This document shows, in pieces, positions 24,179 to 39,968 of a stretch of DNA of 64,000 nucleotides. This DNA is from Prochlorococcus sp. AG-402-M15 (lineage in GTDB: Bacteria > Cyanobacteriota > Cyanobacteriia > PCC-6307 > Cyanobiaceae). Made by a program: the position numbers and the translations under genes. The DNA is taken from positions 62,001 to 126,000 of the forward strand of contig QCIP01000003.1 in the NCBI GenBank assembly GCA_003216615.1. The letters are read 5' to 3'. Position 1 is the stretch's first letter. Each line of letters opens with the position of its first letter. The notes below the pieces were generated by a model, which saw only the letters and a program-made list of their open reading frames with translations, was not told where the DNA came from and did not search any database.

Positions 24179-25237
24179 GTGTTACAAACTTACGGAAAAT
24201 CTGATGTCACCTATGACTGGTACGCAGGGAATTCTGGTGTTGTTGGCCGTTCAGGTAAATTCATAGCAGCTCATGCTGCCCATGCAGGCTTAATGATGTT
24301 TTGGGCAGGAGCTTTTGGATTATTCGAATTAGCTCGTTACGACGCCAGTATTCCAATGGGTGCACAGAAAGCAATTGTTTTGCCTCACCTAGCGGGTATT
24401 GGAATTGGTGGCGTTGAAAATGGTGTAATTACAGAACCATATGGAATTGTTGTAATTTGCACATTACATCTAATTTTCTCTGCAGTATTAGGTGCTGGGG
24501 GATTATTACACTCAAATAAATTTGCAGGTGATCTTGGAGACTATCCAGAAAATAGTAAGCCACAAAAATTTGATTTTGAATGGGATGATCCAGATAAATT
24601 AACTTTTATTCTTGGTCATCATCTAATTTTTCTAGGGCTTGGAGCAATAATGTTCGTCGAATGGGCTCGTATTCATGGAATTTACGACCCAGCGATAGGA
24701 TCTACAAGACAAGTTGTCTACAATTTAGATATTGCCGCTATCTGGAATCATCAATTTGATTTTCTAAAAATAGATAGTCTTGAAGATGTTATGGGAGGAC
24801 ATGCTTTCCTAGCTTTTCTCGAAATAGTTGGCGGAGTTTTCCATATTTGTACTAAACAATTTGGAGAATATACAGAATTTAAAGGAAAAGGATTACTTGG
24901 CGCTGAGGCTATTTTGTCATATTCAGTTGTTGGTGTTTCTTATATGGCTTTTGTTGCAGCTTTTTGGTGTGCTTCAAATACAACCATATATCCAGTTGAT
25001 CTATATGGAGAGCCTTTAAAGCTCCAATTTGAATTCGCCCCTTATTTTACTGATACAGTGGATTTAGGATCAGGTGCATATAGCTCAAGAGCTTGGCTTG
25101 CAAATACTCATTTCTATTTGGGTTTCTTTTTCTTACAAGGTCATCTTTGGCATGCACTAAGAGCAATGGGGTTTGACTTTAAGAAAATTGGTCAAGCTTT
25201 TGACAACATTGAAAATACAAAAATTACTCAAAACTAG
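24179..25237 (+). CDS. Pcb/IsiA-type chlorophyll-binding antenna protein (GTG start)
   Basis: MLQTYGKSDVTYDWYAGNSGVVGRSGKFIAAHAAHAGLMMFWAGAFGLFELARYD...ILGHHLIFLGLGAIMFVEWARIHGIYDP...FYLGFFFLQGHLWHALRAMGFDFKKIGQAFD. Confidence 0.95.
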   Translation: MLQTYGKSDVTYDWYAGNSGVVGRSGKFIAAHAAHAGLMMFWAGAFGLFELARYDASIPMGAQKAIVLPHLAGIGIGGVENGVITEPYGIVVICTLHLIFSAVLGAGGLLHSNKFAGDLGDYPENSKPQKFDFEWDDPDKLTFILGHHLIFLGLGAIMFVEWARIHGIYDPAIGSTRQVVYNLDIAAIWNHQFDFLKIDSLEDVMGGHAFLAFLEIVGGVFHICTKQFGEYTEFKGKGLLGAEAILSYSVVGVSYMAFVAAFWCASNTTIYPVDLYGEPLKLQFEFAPYFTDTVDLGSGAYSSRAWLANTHFYLGFFFLQGHLWHALRAMGFDFKKIGQAFDNIENTKITQN

Positions 25238-29206: not shown

Positions 29207-30508
29207 ATGAAACTCTTCCAAAAGTTGTTGGTTGCAGGAACTGCTTTGAGCTTATTAGCTCCAGTTGCTTCTCAAGCTTCCGACACAGTCAATCTAGAGG
29301 AGATGAATAGCTATGTTCGTAGCGTAAAATCATCTTCAAGATTAGATAGCAAAACCTTCATTAATGATATTAAAGATGGTCTTGCAAATATTAATAACCG
29401 TGTAGACGTATTAGAATCTAGGCAGAACAACTTTGAAGCTGGTGGATTCTCTGACACAACAACATTAGACGGTAAAGCAGTTTTTACTGTTGGTGCTCTT
29501 GATGCTCCTGATGGTGTAGCTACTCTTACTGACTCGACTTTGTTCCAGTACATGTACGTCATGAACTTGAATACAAGTTTTACTGGTGATGACAATCTTT
29601 ATGTAAGGATTAAATCTGGAAACAATTACACTTCAAAAGATGCCAATGGTGATAAGGTAAAACATACTTTTGGCGAAACTAATTACGGTACATATCTTTC
29701 CTCCACTAACCAAAATGGAGATGTGCTAAAGGTTGATAAGATGTGGTACACAATGCCATTAGGTGACAATTTAACGTTTACTGCTGGACCTAAGATTGAA
29801 AACTACTACATGCATGGTACAACGCCTTCAATCTATAAACCTGTTTTAAAACAGTTTACTCTTGGTGGTAATGCTTCAGCTTATGGTGCAAGTACTAGCC
29901 CTGGTGCTGGTTTGACATGGACTTCAGATAATGGAATAGCAATTAGCACAAACTTCACTACTAAATCAGGTAATTCTACAGGTTTATTAACTAACGAAGG
30001 AGCAACTAGTTGGGCTACTCAAGTTGGTTATACACAACCACGCTATTCAGTTTCAGCAATTCTTAATCAAAAGTATAATGATTGGGAGGATAGTTACTTC
30101 TCTACCGCTAATGGTAAGCAAAGAACTTACAACGATGCAAGTAGTACTAACATTGGTCTAAGAGCTTGGTGGAGACCAGAAGAGACAGGAACTGCAGTAC
30201 CTTCAATTTCTGTAGGTTATGACACTTCTGAAACAGATGCGAACGCAAACAGTAGTACAGATATGTACTTTGTTGGTCTTCAATGGCAAGATATGTTCTC
30301 AGCAGAAGATCGTATAGGACTAGCTTTCGGTCAGCCACAAAAGCGTGAAGATGAGACAACTGATCCTTTTGCTTGGGAAGTATATTATCAATTCCAAGTT
30401 AATGATTCAGTTTCTGTAACTCCAGCTGTATTCGGTGGTTCCGATAGAAACGGAACAGCTGGTGCAGATTTAACTGGTGTAGTTGTCGAAACAACATTCA
30501 AATTCTAG
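29207..30508 (+). CDS. som: SOM-type outer-membrane porin
   Basis: Signal peptide MKLFQKLLVAGTALSLLAPVASQASDTVNLEEMNSYVRS; coiled-coil INNRVDVLESRQ; C-terminal barrel ending TGVVVETTFKF. Confidence 0.88.
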   Translation: MKLFQKLLVAGTALSLLAPVASQASDTVNLEEMNSYVRSVKSSSRLDSKTFINDIKDGLANINNRVDVLESRQNNFEAGGFSDTTTLDGKAVFTVGALDAPDGVATLTDSTLFQYMYVMNLNTSFTGDDNLYVRIKSGNNYTSKDANGDKVKHTFGETNYGTYLSSTNQNGDVLKVDKMWYTMPLGDNLTFTAGPKIENYYMHGTTPSIYKPVLKQFTLGGNASAYGASTSPGAGLTWTSDNGIAISTNFTTKSGNSTGLLTNEGATSWATQVGYTQPRYSVSAILNQKYNDWEDSYFSTANGKQRTYNDASSTNIGLRAWWRPEETGTAVPSISVGYDTSETDANANSSTDMYFVGLQWQDMFSAEDRIGLAFGQPQKREDETTDPFAWEVYYQFQVNDSVSVTPAVFGGSDRNGTAGADLTGVVVETTFKF

Positions 30509-32753: not shown

Positions 32754-32838
32754 GGAGAGGTGGCTGAGTGGTCGAAAGCGAACGACTCGAAATCGTTTAA
32801 CGGGAAACTGTTCGTGGGTTCGAATCCCACCCTCTCCG
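32754..32838 (+). tRNA. tRNA-Ser(CGA)
   Basis: GGAGAGGTGGCTGAGTGGTCGAAAGCGAACGACTCGAAATCGTTTAACGGGAAACTGTTCGTGGGTTCGAATCCCACCCTCTCCG; class II long variable arm; anticodon loop CTCGAAA. Confidence 0.96.
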
Positions 32839-32851
32839 TTTTTATTGGTTA

Positions 32852-33010
32852 TTAAGCACAGGAATTTACATGTTTAATCTTTATAGGCAATATATTCCCA
32901 CCTTCTAGATAAGTGCTTGCTTTAACAATTAAAGGAATGGAAATGATACTTAATGCCAATAAAGTCGTAGCGACAGGTTGTGCGAGACGGATGAGTGTTT
33001 TTTTGTCCAT
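32852..33010 (-). CDS. small exported/membrane hypothetical protein
   Basis: Own translation: MDKKTLIRLAQPVATTLLALSIISIPLIVKASTYLEGGNILPIKIKHVNSCA*. Confidence 0.55.
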   Translation of the reverse strand: MDKKTLIRLAQPVATTLLALSIISIPLIVKASTYLEGGNILPIKIKHVNSCA

Positions 33011-33282
33011 TAGAATTAAATGATTTCCCAATAGATAGCACTAAGAATTTTCTTTGAGAAGAAATTAAACACGTATAAAAACACGTATAAAAAACTAGAG
33101 AAGTATTGGAGAAAATAATCTATTTAATTCTTTTCTGAACGAAAAATATTTCCATAAAGTTTTTGGTTCTGTCAAATGAATAAATATATGTGAAGCCATA
33201 AGATATAAAAGAATTTTGGATAGAAACAAATATTTTTAAAAAACTTGCATGTATTCTGTATTAAACTAAACAATTAAATCAT

Positions 33283-33453
33283 CTATTCACCTTTGCCTTT
33301 TAATCCATCAATAAAACCACTACTTATACCTTTTATAGTTTTGCCTACAACATTCCCTGCTTCATTTGCATTATTTTCAATTTCAGCTTTTGTACAACTT
33401 GAAATAGAAATTCCCAGTACTAAAATTGAAAATATGATTAAAAAATTCTTCAT
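33283..33453 (-). CDS. small putative lipoprotein
   Basis: Own translation: MKNFLIIFSILVLGISISSCTKAEIENNANEAGNVVGKTIKGISSGFIDGLKGKGE*; lipobox-like ISSC. Confidence 0.6.
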   Translation of the reverse strand: MKNFLIIFSILVLGISISSCTKAEIENNANEAGNVVGKTIKGISSGFIDGLKGKGE

Positions 33454-34131
33454 CCGTTTCTTTTACTGAAAATTGCAAATTATAATAGCATATCAACTAA
33501 GTTTATATTAATAATTGCATAGCTTGATTCATACTGTCTTTTAGTTTTGAATAAGAAAATTAATGAACTATGAATTGTGAGAAGTTGGTAAAAATACAAA
33601 AAAATATTTTTGTTGCAGGATTTATTGGGGACTTATCAACTATGAATTGATTTATCCTTCCCATAAATGAACATTGGTCTTTAATTCAATATCTGGACTC
33701 TAGGTATGCTTTTAAGTAGTTACATTTAAAGGAAGAAAAATTTTTAAAAATTCCCCGAAGATAATAGCTATAAGTCAAATTAGGATCTATTTAAATTAAA
33801 ATATTTTTGCAGTTTACTCATAAAGGATAAACCAGAGAGTTCCGTTTCTAAATATTTGACGATAGATTAAAGAGCAACAAAATTTCAAAATTAATTTGAA
33901 CTATTTAAATTCTTTCTTATTAGTACTTTTAGTTCTGGCTAATTACTCTAATCTTTACCTTACTCATTTTAAAAAAAGAAGAAAATAATATTTAATTTAC
34001 AGTTTTTTAAATACCAAATTATGATTTACCTTGGCTTTATATAAACTATTATCTTAATAAAAACTAAGATTGATCTATGAAGTTTTTTTGGAGTAAGATT
34101 TAGAAAACAAAAAAGTCTTAGAAGTAAAATT

Positions 34132-36063
34132 ATGAGATTGATTGCATATATTTTTTTTTCTATTCAAATATTAAATTATCTAGGCGTTTTTGCAGAAAAA
34201 TTAAAAGATGAATCGTCTGAATTAAATATAATTAATTTTGAAAATAAAGACGAAAACAAATCTGAACCTTTGAATAAGGTTATCTGGAAATCTTACAAGA
34301 ATGACGAAAACGAATCTGAACCTTTGAATAAGGTTATCTGGAAATCTTACAAGAATGACGAAAACGAATCTGAACCTTTGAATAAGGTTATCTGGAAATC
34401 TTACAAGAATGACGAAATTTATTTTGAAAATAAAAAAGATCAAGGTTCGATTACCAATAGGATCAACTCATCAAGTGAACAAAGAATATATAAATCCACA
34501 AAAAACTCAGTTTTTTCTATTACTGAAATTGAACCTTTTTTACCACTCAATAATTTCCTTGACTATGGCAATTTTCAAACCTCTGTTAGGTGGAAATCAT
34601 CTTTTGACGGAGGTTTATCGGGTGGAACAGGGCAACAAAACCCTTCATTTGTTTTGGATTATGGAATCTCAGATTTCTCCCTTCTTTCTATTTATATTAC
34701 TGGAGCTGATGATGAACTTTATAACTTAGTAGGTGGTCAGAAAATTAACTATTATTGGCAAAGTTACGCACTTTCATTTAAGAAAAGATTAATAGACGAG
34801 AAAGATTTTGATTTTGGATTGTCATGGGTATCCACTGTTGAATATTGGAGGCATGCTAGTGGATCTGAAACGGCAAAAAGCATCTATAATCAAAAAGATA
34901 GTTCATTTGGTAAAGACAAATTTGAACAATTAGTTGGGGCTTTATCTTTTCCAATATCAAAAAATTTAAATGAAAATTTTACTGCTTTAATTGTCCCCGG
35001 CATTACATTTTTACCTGAGAAATTAGGATCTAAAGGTATTGGTAAAAATGCATATGGGAATAATTTTTATATTGGAAGTGGCCTTGTCTATGATGTGACT
35101 GATGATTTTAATCTTCTTTTCTCATATACCACCCCTTTAGGCCCAGGTAATAATTATTTTGACAGTGATTTAAATTACTCTAGAAAGTCTATATATAGTT
35201 TTGGTTTGGGATGGGATGTTAATCCTAAGATTGGAATTGAAGGAAAAATAACCAACTCATATGGGGCTTCGCCCTCTACGGGATTGCTTACTATCCCTTC
35301 AGATAATCTGCCACTTTATTCAGCCAGCATAACTTATAGACCCTACGGAGAGGATACATACCTTAATCCTCTAAATGAAAGAGACAAATTGATCAGTAAT
35401 GGTGGAATTACTGTAAATAATGCCTTAATACCAAGAGCTGGAACTTCTCAATTTAACTTCAACTATGATAGTAGAGGAAATTTGTTCGGTTCTTATGGTT
35501 ATTCTTTATCAAATATATTCCAATTAGAGCTTCTAAATATTGGTAGTTTTAATGATTTAAACCTTAGTGGAAGTACAAATTCGAATTTATATTCAACCTA
35601 CTTAGGTGAAAATAATCTTAATTTTAGGTTAGGCGGGAAACTTTTAATATTTAGTCCCCAAAAAGATGACCTTTATTGGGCTACATTAAGATCATCGGTT
35701 GGTAGAAATGATAATACTAATCAAGGGTATTTATTCTCAGAATTTATTAATACTTTTAGATTAAACAATTGGTTAACCTTTAATATTAGTCCTAAATATT
35801 TTTTTAGTGGAGTGGAAAGTTTTGGTGGGATCGGCTTTTCAAGTTATATAAGTTTATCAGATAGTTTAATGCTTATTCCAGAAATAAATACTTCAATTAA
35901 AAACGATTCGGATTTTAATACTACTATTGCATTGAGATATTCTCTTTCATCTGAAAAGTCATTAGATTTATATTTTTCTAATGCTGCAGGGGTTCAAGAC
36001 ATTGGACAAATTCTTAAAGATAAAGAATATAGATTAGGAATTAATTTGAATTTTTTATATTAA
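34132..36063 (+). CDS. large exported outer-membrane beta-barrel protein (YjbH-like)
   Basis: 643 aa; signal segment, EPFLPLNNFLDYGNFQTSVRWKSSFDGGLSGGTGQQNPSFVLDYGISDF..., alternating amphipathic strands, C-terminal aromatic GINLNFLY. Confidence 0.7.
   Translation: MRLIAYIFFSIQILNYLGVFAEKLKDESSELNIINFENKDENKSEPLNKVIWKSYKNDENESEPLNKVIWKSYKNDENESEPLNKVIWKSYKNDEIYFENKKDQGSITNRINSSSEQRIYKSTKNSVFSITEIEPFLPLNNFLDYGNFQTSVRWKSSFDGGLSGGTGQQNPSFVLDYGISDFSLLSIYITGADDELYNLVGGQKINYYWQSYALSFKKRLIDEKDFDFGLSWVSTVEYWRHASGSETAKSIYNQKDSSFGKDKFEQLVGALSFPISKNLNENFTALIVPGITFLPEKLGSKGIGKNAYGNNFYIGSGLVYDVTDDFNLLFSYTTPLGPGNNYFDSDLNYSRKSIYSFGLGWDVNPKIGIEGKITNSYGASPSTGLLTIPSDNLPLYSASITYRPYGEDTYLNPLNERDKLISNGGITVNNALIPRAGTSQFNFNYDSRGNLFGSYGYSLSNIFQLELLNIGSFNDLNLSGSTNSNLYSTYLGENNLNFRLGGKLLIFSPQKDDLYWATLRSSVGRNDNTNQGYLFSEFINTFRLNNWLTFNISPKYFFSGVESFGGIGFSSYISLSDSLMLIPEINTSIKNDSDFNTTIALRYSLSSEKSLDLYFSNAAGVQDIGQILKDKEYRLGINLNFLY
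34249..34410 (+). repeat. 3 x 54-bp in-frame tandem repeat encoding DEN(K/E)SEPLNKVIWKSYKN
   Basis: Copies at 34249-34302, 34303-34356, 34357-34410; nearly identical nucleotide sequence gacgaaaac(a/g)aatctgaacctttgaataaggttatctggaaatcttacaagaat. Confidence 0.97.
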
Positions 36064-36068
36064 AAAAT

Positions 36069-36320
36069 TTAGTTTTCCCAAAAAGGATCCGTAGTTAATG
36101 AAACTTTTAAAAAGCCTTTTTTATTAGTTTTAATATCACTTATACAAGCTCTTATGGTTTCACCATTTACATCTATTTCACATGCACCGCAACTCCCTGT
36201 AAGACAGCCAGTTGGTATTTCTAAACCAGCTTTTTCTGCAGATGAGAACCAATTATCTCCCTCTGAAGCATAGGTCTCATTATTATTTGGCCATCGAATT
36301 TTAATTTTTGAGTTTTTCAA
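36069..36320 (-). CDS. plant-type [2Fe-2S] ferredoxin
   Basis: 83 aa; LEIPTGCLTGSCGACEIDVNGETIRACIS cluster motif. Confidence 0.92.
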   Translation of the reverse strand: MKNSKIKIRWPNNNETYASEGDNWFSSAEKAGLEIPTGCLTGSCGACEIDVNGETIRACISDIKTNKKGFLKVSLTTDPFWEN

Positions 36321-37846
36321 TTTAATACTGATGAGAGATTTAAATGCTTTTCAAATTCATTTGCTAGATTTTCAATTATTGATTCTCTCTTAACTTTATA
36401 AGATCTTGTTTTTTTCTTTAATGGCGGCAATTTTTTTCTCTGTCTTATCAAATTTATATATTGATCTCTCCACTTATCGTTTTCAAAGATCCCATGAATA
36501 TATGTACCGACAATAGTTCCACCTTCTTTATTTTCTCTATACCAACCAAGATCTAAGTCTTTGAAAATATTTTTAATCTTTAAAGAGCCTTTTAGTGTAT
36601 CTAATTCAGTTTGGCCATTATGAATTTCAAATCCATTAATTTTTGATTGGCATGGCCATAAGGATTCAGAGTTTATTTGACGTGTTAATTTTTTATTAAA
36701 GAAAGTCGTTTTTAATGGTAGTAATCCAATGCCTTTAATTTTTTGTTCAGAATAATTTTCGGAACCTTCTTTAAGGTAAGGATCTTCAAGTGTTGTGCCT
36801 AACATTTGTAATCCTCCACAAATCCCAATAATATTTCCTTGATTTTTTGAATATTCCCTTAAGTCCTCTGACAAACCAGTCTTTTCAAGAAATATTTGAT
36901 CTTTAATAGTTTGTTTACTACCAGGAAGAATAATAAAGTCATACTTCCTTAAGTTCTGGGATTCTTTAATCCATTCAATTAATATTGAATCTTCGTTTTC
37001 CAATGGATCAAAATCTGAGAAGTTGCTTATAGATGGCAATTTTATGATTGCAACTTTAATATCAGGGTTTGTAAAACGAGATTTTTTTTCTAATAAATCT
37101 AGAGAATCTTCTGGAGGAAATGATTCATTTAACCATGGAATTACTCCGATTACAGGAATTTGAGTTTTATCCTCTATCCATTTTTTCCCTTCTTCAAATA
37201 ATGAAAGGTCTCCTCTGAATCTATTTATAATGATTCCTTTAATAAGTTTCTTCTCTTCGGGTTTCATTAATTCAAGTGTCCCGATTATTTGCGCAAAAAC
37301 ACCTCCCCTTTCAATATCAGTAACTAAAATGCAATTTGCGTTTAAATACTTTGCAATTTTTAAATTAGTAAGGTCTCTATGAATCAAGTTCATTTCTACT
37401 GGACTGCCAGCCCCTTCGATAATTAAACGACAATTTGGATCCCTTTTATAAATAGACTTTAAACTTTTTTTAATTACTTCCCAACCTGGTGCAAACCAAT
37501 CTTTGTAGTAATTTTTGGCAGTTGTGATTCCTATACTTTTACCAAGATGAATGACCTCACTTGTTGAATTGCCTTGAGGTTTTAATAATATGGGATTCAT
37601 TTCTGAAGAAGGATTAATACCACAAGCGAAAGCTTGAAGAGCTTGTGAATATGCCATCTCTCCCCCTTCCCAATCAACCCAAGCGTTATTACTCATATTT
37701 TGTCCTTTAAATGGTATTGGTTCTTCCCCTAAATTTTTTAGAATCCTGCAAATTGCTGTAACTGTTAATGATTTTCCTGCACCACTAGAAGTACCTAAAA
37801 CCATTATTGGTTTCTTTTTTGCATTTAATTTGGCTTCTAACTTCAT
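36317..37846 (-). CDS. cobQ: cobyric acid synthase
   Basis: KKPIMVLGTSSGAGKSLTVTAICRIL, PFKGQNMSNNAWV, GICGGLQMLG amidotransferase motif, GTYIHGIFEND. Confidence 0.96.
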   Translation of the reverse strand: MKLEAKLNAKKKPIMVLGTSSGAGKSLTVTAICRILKNLGEEPIPFKGQNMSNNAWVDWEGGEMAYSQALQAFACGINPSSEMNPILLKPQGNSTSEVIHLGKSIGITTAKNYYKDWFAPGWEVIKKSLKSIYKRDPNCRLIIEGAGSPVEMNLIHRDLTNLKIAKYLNANCILVTDIERGGVFAQIIGTLELMKPEEKKLIKGIIINRFRGDLSLFEEGKKWIEDKTQIPVIGVIPWLNESFPPEDSLDLLEKKSRFTNPDIKVAIIKLPSISNFSDFDPLENEDSILIEWIKESQNLRKYDFIILPGSKQTIKDQIFLEKTGLSEDLREYSKNQGNIIGICGGLQMLGTTLEDPYLKEGSENYSEQKIKGIGLLPLKTTFFNKKLTRQINSESLWPCQSKINGFEIHNGQTELDTLKGSLKIKNIFKDLDLGWYRENKEGGTIVGTYIHGIFENDKWRDQYINLIRQRKKLPPLKKKTRSYKVKRESIIENLANEFEKHLNLSSVLN

Positions 37847-38585: not shown

Positions 38586-39968
38586 TTAATCTAAATCTGG
38601 CATTTCTAGAGCTGGTTCACTCTTTCTGTCAATTCCTTTTTCGAAACCAGCAGCAGCTGCCCTAGCACGTCCAGCATGCCAAAGGTGACCGATGAATGTA
38701 AACCATCCTAGGAAGAATTGAGCTGCAGCTAACCATTGTCTTAAGTTAACAAAGTTAACAGCATTAGGCTCTGTAATGATTCCACCAACGGAGTTGATAG
38801 AAGCGTTAGGAGCATGTGTCATATATTCAGCAGCTCTTCTTACTTGCCAAGGCTGAATATCATTTTGGATTTTTTCAAGGCTCAATCCGTTAGGCCCTCT
38901 TAAAGGCTCTAACCATGGACCTCTGAAATCCCAAAATCTCATTGTTTCACCACCAAATATAATTTCACCTGTAGGAGATCTCATGAGATACTTACCTAGA
39001 CCAGTTGGTCCCATTGTTGAACCTACGTTAGCTCCAATTCTTTGATCTCTCACAAGGAAAGTAAAGCTTTGAGCCTGTGAAGCTTCAGCGTTTGTAGGGC
39101 CATAAAACTCAGATGGGTAAGCAGTGTTGTTGAACCAGATGAATGTTGAAGCAATAAAACTTGCTACACAAATTCCACCAAGAGCATAACTTAAGAGTCC
39201 CTCACCGTTCCAGATGAATGCTCTTCTAGCCCATCCAAATGGTTTAGTAAAGATATGGAATATTCCTCCAATGATTGCAGTAATACCCACATAGACATGT
39301 CCACCAACGATATCTTCGATAGAGTTTACACCGATTATTGAACCAGCTCCTCCCCATGGAGATCTAAATAGATAACCAAGAATTACTCTTGGATCTAAAG
39401 TTGGATTAACAAGTCTAACTTCACCACCACCAGGTGCCCATGTGTCATAAGCTCCTCCAATAAAACACCAGTTTACTGACCATGCCAATGCACCTACACC
39501 TAGAACAATCAAATGATATCCAAGGATGTTTGTCATTTGATTCTTATCTCTCCAATCAGTAGAGAAAAATGGGAAATCTTCTTCAAGCTTTTCTGGACCT
39601 GCTAATGAATGATAAATACCACCAAAGCCAAGTACGGCAGAAGCTATTAAGTGAACCACACCTGCTTGGAAGAAAGGCATGATATCAGTGACTTCACCAC
39701 CAGGGCCTATCCCATAACCAAACATTGCTACGTGTGGCATACAGATTAAACCTTGCTCCCACATCGGCTTATCAAAAGTAAAATGATTAACCTCAAAGAG
39801 CATCATTGCTCCCGCCCAAAAGACTATAAGTCCAGAGTGAGCAATGTGAGCTCCTAATAAACGTCCAGATAAATTGATTAGTCTAGCGTTACCTACATAC
39901 CAGGCATAGCCAGTTTCTTCAATACTTTGGTTTGGAGCTCTTAATAAATTATTAAAGGGCGTTTCCAC
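38586..39968 (-). CDS. psbC: photosystem II CP43 protein
   Basis: (GTG)[54 protein letters not shown]...; GTG start at 39966-39968 preferred over the 39995 call. Confidence 0.97.

Follow-up and report, generated by a model that had tools for sequence, protein, structure and literature searches.

Why does an envelope gene in a streamlined Prochlorococcus genome carry three almost identical copies of one 54-bp segment, side by side and just behind the sequence that encodes its signal peptide, and what could the additional copies mean for the protein that bears them? The gene lies in a window of 64,000 nucleotides, the whole stretch of DNA analysed here and the reference for all positions given without a locus of their own, which was taken from contig 3 of a 1.6-Mb Prochlorococcus genome that is assembled in 26 contigs and is 99.7% complete. 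A search of the literature found no description of the 643-aa protein or of its repeat.

Results

An in-frame array at the start of an envelope gene

Across the 64-kb window, TRF reports a tandem array at 34249-34417, with a period of 54, 3.1 copies, a 99% match and a score of 331, which is by far the strongest in the window, where only a handful of weak ones occur elsewhere. The open reading frame in which it lies is intact from the ATG at 34132 to the stop codon ending at 36063, and the units are in frame. The initial annotation had described three near-identical in-frame 54-bp units at these positions, which TRF and the intact frame confirm, and had located them in a barrel-like protein of the outer membrane, directly behind its signal peptide, for which there is also support (see below). 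The units share the consensus peptide DEN(K/E)SEPLNKVIWKSYKN and differ pairwise by 1, 1 and 0 of 54 bases, a single base (AAA or GAA) setting unit 1 apart from units 2 and 3 (Table 1). Tandem, in-frame units of such high identity are what a VNTR is made of, and the copy number also differs between lineages as that of a VNTR does, being three here and one in each other species examined. No second copy of the unit was found elsewhere in the genome, where the sole other DNA match is of 21 bases and falls outside the units. A mobile element or phage origin was considered and rejected, as there is no match in phage records or PHROGs and the junction pattern of the array is absent from viral contigs.

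Table 1. Positions of the array, its gene and the borders of the locus in the window.
Feature	Position	Strand	Remarks
tRNA-Ser(CGA)	32754..32838	+	Edge of the variable interval
Type-A outer-membrane barrel-like protein bearing the array, 643 aa	34132..36063	+	From the ORF and ortholog comparison
Signal peptide MRLIAYIFFSIQILNYLGVFA (aa 1-21)	34132..34194	+	From sequence; start of the conserved N-terminal head; conserved across orthologs and barrel types
Degenerate Trp motif 1 (IINFENK)	34228..34248	+	Holds the upstream TTTTGAAAATAAA at 34236-34248; relatives have I-x-W-E-K-V
54-bp unit 1, DENKSEPLNKVIWKSYKN	34249..34302	+	Trp52; unit position 4 is Lys, as in most relatives
54-bp unit 2, DENESEPLNKVIWKSYKN	34303..34356	+	Trp70; AAA to GAA relative to unit 1
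54-bp unit 3, DENESEPLNKVIWKSYKN	34357..34410	+	Trp88; same as unit 2
Junction sequence, AAGAATGACGAAAACGAATCTGAACC	in the array	+	
Partial fourth copy, GACGAAA	34411..34417	+	Short direct repeat bracketing the unit
Downstream TTTTGAAAATAAA copy (YFENK)	34422..34434	+	Ancestral in orthologs
First barrel-like half, aa 131-404	34522..35343	+	In full-length type A, missing in 316-322-aa forms; boundaries approximate
Second barrel-like half, aa 405-643	35344..36060	+	Ends in beta-signal-like GINLNFLY; stands alone behind the head in A-short proteins
Ferredoxin-like gene and cobQ	36069..37846	-	Conserved right border of the locus

One unit in relatives, three in the window

Orthologs or partial relatives were found in 87 of 200 genomes of the genus, while a search at the DNA level covered all 266, and N-termini were compared over about 86 genes, one per species. 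The aligned orthologs have exactly one unit, relative to which the window protein contains a 36-aa insertion that amounts to two extra units, and no second case of the 54-bp repeat was found among the roughly 86 N-termini. Because the unit is single-copy in all other species examined, the triplication is lineage-specific; and because the unit of the nearest ortholog is 8 of 54 bases away, as against 0-1 of 54 among the window units, the duplication took place after the divergence from all species sampled, barring homogenisation of the copies. The comparison of repeat number among orthologs, which had been proposed as a check, thus returns one unit in each other species examined and three here, and the recency that had been claimed for the triplication is borne out in the form of lineage specificity. 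The event itself is of an ordinary kind, probably an in-frame slippage duplication. A weak second DNA match in one relative (G142:C5) carried no homolog of the proteins of the locus.

A shared head with two tryptophan motifs

The array stands in a conserved N-terminal head, composed of the signal peptide and two Phi-x-W motifs 15-17 residues apart, that is common to type A proteins of 607 aa and their A2 variant, to type B proteins of about 560 aa (WRNRTLRFSFEEI...), and to shortened versions, 316-322 aa long in type A and 223-227 aa long in type B. Across these types, the only invariant residues of the head are the two Trp (alignment A3); the window head has the signal peptide and the spaced motifs and matches profile A3, its first Trp being Phe, and that profile matches only the array-bearing gene in this genome. 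Median dN/dS of the head is 0.32 among type A genes, 0.25 among type B genes and 0.29 from A to B; its dS from A to B, 0.77, is only slightly higher than the 0.62 found within A. Since dN/dS is thus about 0.3 and the dS from A to B is near that within A, the heads are truly homologous, constrained as protein, and recombined with different C-termini. Between the C-terminal parts of A and B no homology was detectable (hhalign probability <1%), and the linker just downstream of the head is poorly conserved, with small indels. Judged on sequence, the head behaves as a portable module placed before two apparently unrelated barrel-like domains.

The type A, A2 and B proteins of other Prochlorococcus resemble the window protein in their signal peptide and two Phi-x-W motifs, and the type A, A2 and some of the B genes also occupy the same locus. 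Most of them differ in having a single copy of each motif, while two (L096 and L197) have duplicated motif 1 in place of the motif 2 that is duplicated in the window. When TRF was run over the roughly 86 head genes (145 kb), only three arrays scored above 100, and all three lie in the head. In addition to that of the window, these are tandem, in-frame duplications of Trp motif 1 with a unit of 45 bp, of 2.2 copies at 98% in a type A gene (L096:4601-6466, genome G205) and of 2.1 copies at 96% in a type B gene (L197:1-2801, genome G185). Their unit, EKVxEDSSxxNSIxW, runs from the EKV after the signal peptide to the EKV after the Trp, and the units differ by 11-12 of 45 bases between the two genes as against 1-2 of 45 within each, so the two duplications are independent. 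All three arrays are in frame with one Phi-x-W motif per unit, and the outcome in each protein is three such motifs where there are otherwise two, the window protein having gained two and lost one. The same head has therefore been duplicated motif by motif at least three times.

Possible seeds for slippage and a probably copied flank

In single-copy relatives such as L012 and L004, GATGAA is found at both ends of the unit, 54 bp apart, once as the D-E of DENK and once as the D-E of NDE; this bracketing repeat reads GAYGAA in relatives and GACGAAA at both places in the window, although this seed at the 54-bp distance is short and, at 6 nt or more, is present in only 5 of 79 single-copy genes. 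For the 45-bp cases the EKV pair provides the bracketing repeat, and in 47 genes EKx codons recur at a distance of exactly 45 nt, at least 8 of 9 nt being identical in 20 of the 47, as compared with 1.6% at other codon positions. The short direct repeats at both unit ends in single-copy relatives make the earlier proposal of slippage or recombination likely, and it is on these junctions that slippage as the cause would rest. Replication slippage or microhomology recombination between the repeats bracketing an ancestral single unit would have given a tandem duplication, one base of the second copy would then have changed from AAA to GAA, and the changed copy would have been duplicated again to yield three units. 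This order of duplication, mutation and second duplication is the simplest, since the Lys of most relatives is still present in unit 1 and the derived Glu is common to units 2 and 3.

The 13-mer TTTTGAAAATAAA occurs exactly twice in the window, once on either side of the array, and occurred twice in none of 100 shuffles. Its downstream copy begins 4 nt past the end of the array and does not abut it. The upstream flank in relatives is TTGG(G)AAAAGGT(A), which encodes the conserved Trp, and the ancestral TTTTGAAAATAAA is the downstream copy only. About five clustered substitutions separate the WEKV of the relatives from the FENK of the window and produce an exact 13-nt copy of the downstream sequence; when extended, the match between the two flanks is 17 of 18 nt, with conserved bases on both sides of the changed cluster, and the array-bearing protein thereby has Phe where the first Trp is otherwise conserved. 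We read the upstream TTTTGAAAATAAA as probably copied from the downstream one, by local conversion or a template switch. The initial annotation had the unit flanked by this sequence on both sides, and the sequence is indeed there in both places, but one copy is set off from the array and the other is not ancestral.

The barrel-like domains

The 643-aa protein has no match in Pfam, NCBIfam, PDB or PHROG, and no profile of a named porin family (SomB NF033921 and the Pfam porins) matches it above cut-off; in a short relative, Pfam OMP_b-brl appears with an E of 0.0085, below cut-off. Models by AlphaFold2 on a shallow alignment had pLDDT values of 30 and 46, the one for the second half (pLDDT 46) being weak and having 12 strands. 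From the signal peptide, the strand-rich prediction and the C-terminal GINLNFLY, which fits a beta-signal, we infer that the protein probably forms a barrel, with the caveat that the confidence of AlphaFold2 is poor.

Short proteins of 316-322 aa (L051, L186, L224, L228, L230, L233 and L234) have the head joined directly to the C-terminal part of A, and others of 223-227 aa (L198 and L199) have it joined directly to the C-terminal part of B, which suggests two-domain, possibly double, barrels that may have lost their first domain. The C-terminal part of type B (L052:695-2140) has no Pfam family and is internally repeated, its first part aligning with its second by hhalign at 96% (E 1.9e-9).

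A SomB-type iron uptake porin is encoded at 29207-30508 (+), two genes upstream of the gene for a futA-like iron-binding protein, and scores 94 bits against the cut-off of 100 for NF033921. It is a cyanobacterial outer-membrane barrel, as the window protein also seems to be, and the two share an iron-related neighbourhood, but the window protein differs in having no match to the porin family.

A variable interval between tRNA-Ser(CGA) and cobQ

The array gene is located between tRNA-Ser(CGA) on one side and the ferredoxin-like gene, cobQ, maf and psbC on the other. From the tRNA to the ferredoxin-like gene and cobQ (32839-36068 in the window; cobQ loci L089-L181 in other genomes), the interval is a small variable island with differing barrel types, truncated barrels or none, and in L089 it also contains methyltransferase-like, membrane and rhomboid-like ORFs. 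Within the window, a gene-poor 1.3-kb stretch from the tRNA to the barrel gene holds a small-lipoprotein-like ORF of 56 aa (MKNFLIIFSILVLGISISSCTKAE...) at 33283-33453 (-).

The cobQ loci of 112 distinct genomes, a sample biased towards A, which had served as the query for fetching many of the loci, divide into A in 28, A2 in 6, B in 8, a truncated form in 2 and none in 68. One locus (L127) retains only a C-terminal stub of 169 aa, and some type B genes are located elsewhere in the genome, as in G120. On the cobQ tree, the presence of a barrel changes 30 times (27-41 in shuffles, mean 34.7) and its type 14 times (11-15, mean 14.1), counts that are indicative only since the tree is poorly resolved, with 58 of its 109 inner branches weak. 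Presence and type are, on this indication, nearly as scattered as by chance; barrels have been gained, lost, truncated or swapped at the locus.

Two matches to the Rfam family IsrR, the antisense of isiA, were also recorded, at 39371-39554 (+) and 24581-24752 (-). The one at 39371-39554 lies opposite psbC and may reflect the sequence homology of CP43 and IsiA, not a real antisense RNA.

Discussion

The segment between the signal peptide and the barrel of an outer-membrane protein normally faces the periplasm, and we take the head of these proteins to be, most likely, a periplasmic tail without fixed structure that would link or dock the barrel to a shared envelope component. Most likely, too, this tail tolerates one more Trp motif or occasionally profits from it, any advantage of three motifs being our own supposition. 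Taken as a whole, we think it reasonably probable that slippage triplicated one Trp-motif unit of a portable head whose role is that of such a docking or linking tail. Constraint on two Trp across apparently unrelated barrels suggests that the head docks to an envelope partner common to them or has a generic part in assembly, which we regard as about as likely as a tolerant linker whose duplications are neutral. A fuller version, in which the portable head docks several unrelated barrels to one envelope partner, the barrels being swapped at the tRNA-Ser locus and the number of motifs adjusted by slippage from two to three on three independent occasions, is at present tentative and rather doubtful.

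How much of this requires function at all is a fair question, and it is quite possible, though somewhat short of an even chance, that the tail is simply a tolerant, disordered spacer into which slippage at chance microhomologies inserts units to no functional effect, each unit carrying one Trp for no other reason than that the Trp motifs happen to lie between the seeds. Arrays are indeed few, with 3 in about 86 genes and three units at most, the linker just behind is poorly conserved and has small indels, and the array-bearing protein has itself exchanged the conserved first Trp for Phe. What speaks for constraint is that both Trp are invariant in alignment A3 and omega of the head is about 0.3, and that the three strong arrays all fall on Trp motifs and not in the more variable linker. 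The manner of growth can be debated in the same way: the clustered WEKV to FENK substitutions, which recreate the downstream 13-mer, could mean that gene conversion or template switching made the whole arrangement, flank included, in one complex event. We consider this unlikely, since stepwise growth fits the one-base difference between unit 1 and the other two, and the flank could have been copied separately. A further explanation is that assembly or amplification erred and that only one or two units are really there: the array, at 169 bp, is longer than a typical short read of 150 nt, units 2 and 3 are identical, and the assembly has 26 contigs. The distinguishing base in unit 1, however, implies at least two distinct copies, the flanks are unique, and the similar array of L197 (2 of 45 bases between units) is found in a genome of 4 contigs that is given as 100% complete, all of which makes an artefact very improbable.

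Repeats of this sort invite comparison with the intragenic variable tandem repeats of bacterial surface proteins reviewed in PMC3899988 and with the mobile coding repeat exemplified in PMC2996958. The window array is alike in its in-frame, near-identical units, its envelope protein and its recent expansion, but differs in having only 3 units, in one lineage and in a presumably periplasmic tail, and in repeating, as do its 45-bp counterparts, a whole motif of 15 or 18 aa where those have many short repeats. The initial annotation had likened VIWKSYKND to the first strand region of the barrel (VRWKSSFDGG), had suggested that the repeats may mimic or extend a surface or plug segment, had held copy-number variation to be probable, and had supposed that an N-terminus of variable length could matter to phages or grazers. 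Diversifying selection on a variable repeat that alters such a segment would suit an array made unstable by near-identical units at a locus so variable in barrel presence and type; we nevertheless hold it to be improbable. In the A2 orthologs IIWKSY is preserved, but SSNFVSAFSGG or STNWVSSFNGG takes the place of the strand, so that the resemblance is not conserved. It is hard to see the head as a copy of the window barrel or as a plug fitted to it, because the same head precedes C-terminal domains without detectable similarity to that barrel. Each other species examined, at one genome per species, has a single unit, and for a tail that presumably faces the periplasm a part in phage or grazer encounters is unsupported.

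Since tandem repeats appear to be scarce in such streamlined genomes, an in-frame array as unstable as this one, in a gene for an envelope protein, can serve as a marker and as a natural experiment on a small scale. Beyond the array itself, a constant head before apparently unrelated barrels points to a shared candidate partner in the envelope and to outer-membrane proteins being exchanged as modules, at one fixed locus, in one of the most abundant photosynthetic organisms.
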